Shown: in pieces, positions 2,046 to 23,407 of the stretch | How the letters are laid out: every line of letters starts with the position of its first letter | How positions within the stretch are numbered: the first letter of the stretch is position 1 | NCBI RefSeq assembly: GCF_021530995.1 | Contig: NZ_JADYTF010000003.1 | Span: 1-64,000, forward strand | DNA length: 64,000 nt | Reading direction: 5' to 3' | From: Bacteroides caecigallinarum | GTDB taxonomy: Bacteria > Bacteroidota > Bacteroidia > Bacteroidales > Bacteroidaceae | Made by a program: the position numbers and the translations under genes | Notes under the pieces: model-generated | Database searches by the model: none | The model's input: the letters and a program-made list of their open reading frames with translations, nothing else | What the model was told of the DNA's origin: nothing

Positions 2046-2738
2046 ATGAAAACAATAACTTTCGATAATTACTACAAGGAGAAACTGTTGTCAATACCAC
2101 TGTTTTGTGATTTGCCAGACAACATCAAACACGAGATTATCAAAAAGCTTGATATAAAGCTTTATGATATTGATGAAAACACAGTGGTATTGGAACAGGG
2201 TAATGTATGCTGCAATCTGTATGTACTTCTTAAAGGTACATTGGAAGTAAATATCATCGATGCTAACGCCAACGAGATCCTGATAGAATATATAGAATCG
2301 CCAAGAGCATTTGCTACACCTCACCTCTTCAAGAAGGACAACCGTCTGCCCGCTACATTTAAGACTATAGAGAAATCTGTATTACTGACAGCTACCAAAG
2401 ACTCCACATTCGAGCTGATAAGTAAATACCCTGATATATTAAAAAATTTCCTTTGTGTCTCGGGAAATTGCAATGTGTGTACCACTATGAGGCTGGATGT
2501 ACTGTCCAGAAAAACCATCCGCGAAAGAATACTGGTATATCTGATGAAAAGAATTGACAAAAAATCTTCTACAATAAAGCTTACACATACCATCACCCAG
2601 CTGGCAGAATACTTTAATGTCACACGCCCTGCCCTTTCGACGGAATTCAACAAGATGGAAAAGGAAGGTATTATTACCCGTAAGGAGAACAACTATATAG
2701 AACTGAATCTGAAAGCTATAAAGAATTTTGTTCTGTAA
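2046..2738 (+). CDS. Crp/Fnr family transcriptional regulator
   Basis: 230-residue regulator with an N-terminal cyclic-nucleotide-binding-type beta-roll (about 15-130), a dimerisation helix, and a C-terminal Crp-type winged helix (about 155-225; recognition region TQLAEYFNVTRPALSTEFNK). It is convergent with the nrf/ccs cluster, so the likely role is control of anaerobic or nitrosative metabolism, as with the Fnr-like and HcpR-like regulators of Bacteroidales; this is inference. It lacks the N-terminal four-cysteine pattern of E. coli FNR but has an unusual cysteine group, CVSGNCNVC, at the start of the hinge helix plus a CC pair in the beta-roll. Ligand unknown. Confidence 0.88.
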   Translation: MKTITFDNYYKEKLLSIPLFCDLPDNIKHEIIKKLDIKLYDIDENTVVLEQGNVCCNLYVLLKGTLEVNIIDANANEILIEYIESPRAFATPHLFKKDNRLPATFKTIEKSVLLTATKDSTFELISKYPDILKNFLCVSGNCNVCTTMRLDVLSRKTIRERILVYLMKRIDKKSSTIKLTHTITQLAEYFNVTRPALSTEFNKMEKEGIITRKENNYIELNLKAIKNFVL

Positions 2739-2743
2739 AAGAA

Positions 2744-22900: not shown

Positions 22901-23041
22901 TAACATGACAAAAAAATATTATACAGACAATATTACATGACAAAAATGTCAGCTATAATACTTTTATTTGATTTACATCAATAAAAAGCTATAAAAATTG
23001 AAAAACATGTCGCATAACATATTTTGTGAAAAAAAAGGCCT

Positions 23042-23049
23042 TATCTTTG
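23042..23049 (+). promoter_or_regulatory. -7 element driving the short structured transcript
   Basis: TATCTTTG followed by CAG, a perfect -7 element. A TTTG is present at 23023-23026, but the 15-base spacing is shorter than the usual 19-20. Nothing recognisable was seen in 22901-23022 apart from AT-rich sequence. Confidence 0.55.
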
Positions 23050-23120
23050 CAGTGTAATTAAAGACCGACAGGTCCTAAACTTAACTAAACACATAAATAA
23101 TTTTAAGGTAAATAGGTAAA

Positions 23121-23153
23121 ATGATTAAGGTAAAAATCGAAGGCCAGCCGTGA
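23121..23153 (+). CDS. Possible 10-residue leader peptide
   Basis: ATG-initiated frame encoding MIKVKIEGQP and then TGA. It sits upstream of the 32-residue frame; its stop codon lies in the loop of the AGCC-GTGA-GGTT hairpin. The preceding AGGTAAATAGGTAAA is purine-rich. May be a leader peptide coupled to folding, or chance. Confidence 0.25.
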   Translation: MIKVKIEGQP

Positions 23154-23210
23154 GGTTCGCCCGAGAGAAAAGAAAAGTTATTATTAACTTAAAGAAGAAA
23201 GGATAACATT

Positions 23211-23309
23211 ATGAAAAAGGTAAAAAGTATTTTTAACAAGATTGCCAATGCAGACCCAATGATTTGGGGTTATGTAATGTTGAACGACAACATGGCAAAC
23301 AGAAAGTAA
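23211..23309 (+). CDS. Putative 32-residue small protein
   Basis: Starts ATG-AAA-AAG after a purine-rich stretch ending AAAGGATAACATT, a better ribosome-binding site than most genes here have. The product begins MKKVKSIFNKIANADP, a basic amphipathic stretch, and continues through a hydrophobic segment MIWGYVML to an Asn-rich basic end. It is too short for confident gene calling, but the promoter, ribosome-binding site and terminator around it argue for expression. Family not recognised; a membrane-associated role would suit the composition but is a guess. Confidence 0.55.
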   Translation: MKKVKSIFNKIANADPMIWGYVMLNDNMANRK

Positions 23310-23373
23310 AAAGTTTCGGGTCACAACGACCCTAGTAATTTGAAAATTATGACCGTGAGGTCTGGAAATAAAG

Positions 23374-23407
23374 AAAAGCGTCTGTATTAATTTACAGGCG
23401 CTTTTTT
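23374..23407 (+). terminator. Strong intrinsic terminator of the short transcript
   Basis: AAAAGCGTCTGTA (23374-23386) pairs with TACAGGCGCTTTT (23393-23405) with one U-G wobble; the loop is TTAATT and a T run follows. This is a textbook intrinsic terminator for plus-strand transcription. Bases 23408-23511 hold only AT-rich sequence with a weak TATATTCG before the helicase gene. Confidence 0.85.

Follow-up and report, generated by a model that had tools for sequence, protein, structure and literature searches.

The interval 23042-23407 of the window, by which we mean the whole analysed stretch of 64,000 nucleotides, forms one transcription unit between a membrane protein gene and a helicase-TPR gene, and on the evidence of sequence comparison the 32-codon frame within it is a real gene under purifying selection. 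We consider it reasonably probable (about 0.6) that the unit is transcribed into a ~350-nt monocistronic mRNA, induced by starvation or redox signals, which encodes an amphipathic, membrane-peripheral small protein and carries a regulatory hairpin in its leader. Comparison of homologues supports the selection on the frame, the P2 hairpin and two promoter palindromes at fixed positions. The elements follow each other in the order -7 box, P1, P2, ribosome-binding region, 32-codon frame, P3, P4 and terminator (Table 1), and a check of the sequence recovered every feature named in an initial annotation of this DNA where it had been placed.

Table 1 Features of the small-protein locus, with positions in the window.
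Feature	Position	Strand	Basis or remark
Upstream neighbour, gene for a 358-residue membrane protein	end 22900		name read from sequence
FNR-type 14-bp palindrome TTGATTTACATCAA, centred about -80	22968..22981	+	TTGA-N6-TCAA in homologues
Cur/BT4338-like site AAACATGTCGCATAACATATTT, centred about -41	23003..23024	+	match to published consensus
-7 promoter box TATCTTTG, Bacteroidota TAnnTTTG type	23042..23049	+	sequence and homologues
Hairpin P1, GACC-GACA-GGTC, near transcript start	23063..23074	+	weakly supported as conserved
Hairpin P2, GGCCAGCC-GTGA-GGTTCGCC, in 5' UTR	23142..23161	+	covariation
Ribosome-binding region AAGAAAGGATAACATT	23195..23210	+	near-identical among homologues
32-residue small protein MKKVKSIFNKIANADPMIWGYVMLNDNMANRK	23211..23309	+	genus-wide presence, dN/dS, predicted helices
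Hairpin P3, GGGTC-ACAAC-GACCC, in 3' UTR	23318..23332	+	stem kept, letters differ in relatives
Hairpin P4, GACC-GTGA-GGTC, in 3' UTR	23351..23362	+	3' UTR fold; TGGTC-GAAA-GACCA in homologue L003
Intrinsic terminator	23375..23407	+	15-bp stem and T run
Downstream neighbour, helicase-TPR gene	start 23512		name read from sequence

Using a protein profile, we detected the small-protein gene in 30 of 37 good Phocaeicola genomes and in 40 of the 61 genomes of the genus overall. Since some members of the genus do without it, the gene is dispensable. Searched at the DNA level, 24 of 40 relatives matched, namely the window's own genome, 22 others of the same genus (for a few of these the match was incomplete or fell on a sister gene or NqrC) and a single one outside the genus, the latter at chance level. 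Scanning named genomes yielded 44 loci. Almost without exception, these come from genomes that bear the label Phocaeicola or Bacteroides, including P. vulgatus ATCC 8482, P. plebeius, P. coprocola, P. coprophilus and P. barnesiae, with the nearest loci coming from 'Bacteroides caecigallinarum' strains. Most genomes carry one monocistronic copy, and a search of the window's own genome returned just one family member.

The frame evolves with a dN/dS of 0.093 over 24 homologue pairs, in which the L065/L066 pair is nearly double-counted, and third codon positions account for 114 of the 162 changes. Together with its presence across the genus, this value bears out the 32-codon frame with a ribosome-binding site that had been pointed out initially. 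The 10-codon frame noted alongside it turned out to be incidental, as the MIKVK frame recurs in 4 of 49 homologues and differs in length among them. Residues M1, K2, K3, D15, P16, W19, G20, V22, M23 and L24 are invariant in both alignments of the small protein. An AlphaFold2 model predicts helices at residues 2-14 and 16-31 with a mean pLDDT of 80, the former being cationic and amphipathic (moment 0.65, shuffle p 0.013).

The promoter, leader and untranslated regions were analysed in a set of 49 homologues, all of which contain a TAnnTTTG box 143-221 nt before the start codon. This -7 box had been recognised in the initial annotation, which missed the FNR-type and Cur-like boxes upstream, the most informative part of the locus for function. 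TTGA-N6-TCAA lies 72-75 bp upstream of the -7 box in 49/49 homologues, compared with an occurrence anywhere in 1.5% of shuffled stretches. The Cur-like site matches 11 of 14 core positions in the window and 12-13 in most relatives; 46 of 49 homologues score 11-13 at one fixed position, a score of at least 11 being reached in 1.3% of shuffles. It is absent from the copies L065_4000 and L066_3771 among the 49 scored. A palindrome of the ATG...AACAT type is found 34-36 bp upstream of the -7 box in 37 of the homologues. When eight genomes were searched with the combined promoter pattern, it matched the small-protein gene alone (2 matches).

Assuming, as we infer, a start site ~12 nt past the beginning of the -7 box, the two boxes would be centred near -80 and -41, the usual class I and class II spacing of CRP/FNR activators. 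BT4338/Cur regulates genes under carbon limitation in B. thetaiotaomicron and has the consensus wwwTATGTTnTAnAACATAwww (PMC6989115), and its B. vulgatus orthologue BVU_3580 functions under carbon limitation as well (PMC10294740). The Cur regulon of Bacteroides includes fusA2 and the sRNA MasB (PMC6989115, PMC10994844). Like its members, the locus has a box that fits the published consensus at a putative activator position; unlike them, it has an extra FNR-type box, and Cur control is here a prediction. Judged from these boxes, starvation- and redox-type regulators probably switch the gene on. The window's genome encodes four CRP/FNR-family proteins, one of which, a regulator of 231 residues encoded at 2046-2741 (+) of the window, is a candidate for the -80 box. 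HcpR2 was rejected for this role, as its motif GTAACnnnnGTTAC (PMC1274295) does not fit the box. Of note, a similar FNR-type plus Cur-like promoter precedes a ~118-residue signal-peptide protein (MKRFGLTLVAA...) in two Bacteroides-like genomes, at a distance of ~130 bases past the Cur-like box.

By the covariation of its stem, P2 is a real RNA element. In its stem, a 1x1 mismatch separates 3 bp from 4 bp, the latter capped by a GNGA tetraloop; 29 of 38 distinct rows have C.C as the mismatch, and four rows have a five-base loop instead. Its covariation score is 0.496 versus 0.225 in shuffles, with 6/7 pairs changed on both sides. Over 34 distinct rows, 90% of the cells are paired as compared to 76% in shuffles, and 36 cells versus 12 are changed on both sides; the signal collapses in slid versions. 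In another comparison, 240 cells were paired, against a maximum of 220 over 5000 arm shuffles. In the eight genomes searched, the P2 pattern occurs at most once per genome and always at the small-protein locus. P2 ends ~50 nt before the start codon in the window and farther away in many relatives, and thus itself leaves the ribosome-binding site uncovered.

The fold of the whole transcript is more stable than its own shuffles (z -4.4), to which the terminator contributes part. Without P2, the 5' part has a mean z of -0.6 among the homologues and shows no clear excess folding, which renders P1 doubtful, although in the closest relatives the letters of its stem change on either side. Upstream of the terminator, the 3' UTR reaches a mean z of -2.2 (46 sequences, 85% below -1), and the 3' hairpin stems keep their position across homologues with different letters. 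Since the coding region, too, is somewhat more stable than its shuffles (mean z -1.6), the flanks cannot be singled out by the shuffle test alone. The structured hairpins proposed at the outset are thus retained in the case of the covarying P2 and the 3' hairpins held in place, and are weak in the case of P1. Their description as four instances of one repeated motif did not survive: P2 alone is a specific covarying element, and P3 and P4 are separate 3' hairpins. Identical stem letters in P1 and P4 are peculiar to the window's genome, and a P1-P4 pairing predicted in the fold of the window was rejected for this reason.

In other Bacteroidaceae, the profile search revealed operons of two or three proteins of 24-32 residues with WGY-like tails, beginning with proteins such as MKKLRKLFRRFGEADKNIWGYVML and continuing with further tiny frames such as MKKKIMNSFRRILAEVGRNEMLMMGYTIKK. 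P. vulgatus possesses an additional, separate three-gene operon of 28-residue sisters. Both the FNR-type and the Cur-like box are present in most of the promoters of these relatives, where the start site often holds another Cur-like copy; no P2 was seen there. Shared MKK starts and WGY-like tails suggest that the first peptide type descends from the same ancestor as the sister types. When 393 evenly sampled genomes of the order were searched, no other genus gave a match at E 0.001.

In the mechanism that we favour for the small-protein mRNA, the CRP/FNR-family activators Cur, under carbon limitation, and an FNR-type regulator would together induce transcription from the class I plus class II arrangement. 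The leader hairpin may be bound by a protein or ligand and thereby tune translation or stability. The amphipathicity of the cationic N-terminal helix suggests that it could anchor the small protein at the inner face of the membrane, and the invariant DP..WG.VML part would contact a partner, probably a complex of the membrane or of energy metabolism that is adjusted during starvation. A possible parallel is offered by small bacterial accessory proteins associated with the membrane, such as CydX and AcrZ, which are likewise ~30-50 residues long with a conserved core; in contrast to these, the small protein has an amphipathic helix in place of a transmembrane segment, and its partner is putative. 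On a wider reading, which we offer tentatively and with the odds somewhat against it, Bacteroidaceae as a whole would use tiny proteins of 24-32 residues, with a cationic amphipathic helix and a WGY-like tail, that are under starvation and redox control and jointly act on the membrane or its energy enzymes. In Phocaeicola a structured mRNA would encode one such protein alone, in Bacteroides an operon two or three, and a new protein- or ligand-binding hairpin in the Phocaeicola leader would control one of them.

The human gut harbours Phocaeicola and Bacteroides among its most abundant bacteria, and the way in which they respond to starvation influences gut colonisation. If the favoured reading is true, a nearly genus-wide gene outside the tested family libraries belongs to this response, and the regulator (cur orthologue BVU_3580), the RNA element and the peptide are all accessible in P. 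vulgatus ATCC 8482. The locus also illustrates that small-protein genes can look like small-RNA loci in these genera.

Initially, a small RNA, a small-protein mRNA with structured flanks, or both had been envisaged. The frame constraint, the P2 covariation and the fold of the 3' UTR speak for the mRNA, and no support was found for a base-pairing sRNA. We regard it as unlikely that the transcript is a dual-function or mainly regulatory RNA which base-pairs like the Cur-activated MasB of B. thetaiotaomicron and in which the frame is secondary. Cur-activated sRNAs such as MasB do exist (PMC10994844), and the locus resembles it in giving a short, intergenic transcript, here structured and with 3' hairpins that hold position. 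Unlike MasB, however, it encodes a conserved protein and spans ~350 nt versus ~100 nt; in place of the lack of a selected coding frame that marks a MasB-type RNA, we found strong protein constraint (dN/dS 0.09). The letters of P1, P3 and P4 moreover vary freely by species, a conserved single-stranded seed was not seen in the transcript, and Bacteroides operons make the same protein type without the Phocaeicola leader. Leaderless multi-peptide bacteriocins such as aureocin A70, or modulin-like amphipathic peptides leaving the cell, would fit the amphipathic N-terminus and the tandem arrangement, in Bacteroides and P. vulgatus, of two or three related cationic peptides of 24-32 residues, which like aureocin A70 have no leader. 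This is quite unlikely to apply here, given that no consistently linked transporter or immunity gene emerged when the neighbours in 26 neighbourhoods were clustered and read, that the sequence is near-invariant over a genus without diversification, and that the gene is a single monocistronic copy in most genomes, the window's own among them.

Two further explanations concern particular neighbours or look-alikes. The tail IWGYVMLND could copy the IWGYVALND segment of NqrC, a subunit of the Na+-translocating NADH:quinone reductase, and interfere with that complex; a frame of NqrC size is the profile's usual weak best match outside the family in Bacteroidaceae genomes (E 0.01-0.05), and the match in L022/L023 (about 1480-1530) reads as NqrC and carries IWGYVALND. 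We judge such mimicry very unlikely, since these E-values are weak and extend over 12 columns, and since the small protein is helical there in the predicted structure, whereas the NqrC segment is a strand. That the frame is a leader peptide or attenuator of the helicase-TPR gene is the most improbable proposal of all: this gene does lie downstream at about half of the loci (cluster c0, 14/26), but a strong terminator separates it from the small-protein unit, other copies adjoin unrelated genes, and the unit is duplicated in tandem in L037 and L065.

The description of the locus as uncatalogued holds for Rfam, Pfam and NCBIfam, no model of which covers it. Rfam gave no match in the window above gathering score, and relaxed thresholds added chance-level matches only, far below threshold; Pfam and NCBIfam returned 0 families for three members and ten sister peptides. 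No relatives of the small protein were found in viral contigs, and plasmids gave no match, so that these searches do not point to an origin on a mobile element. Strings of the peptide, among them IWGYVML and ADPMIWG, were not found in the literature searched, and the main text of a structured-RNA survey (PMC8040213) names neither Bacteroides nor Phocaeicola. It is possible that the small protein or RNA is listed, without a name, in published survey tables. The RbpB/FopS sRNA family was discarded as a candidate, no connection being apparent in PMC11697453.

Three genomes contain, besides intact copies elsewhere, a decayed copy of the gene that is interrupted by in-frame stop codons (G007:C1:1398453, G073:C124:5688 and G055:C2:144126). 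In L037 and L065, the whole transcription unit is present twice in tandem, with diverged leaders and unchanged architecture. Probably as a result of mis-binning, the contig CALXVY010000043.1 (L066) is assigned to an alphaproteobacterial MAG; its tandem copies are of the Phocaeicola type and almost identical to those of L065.
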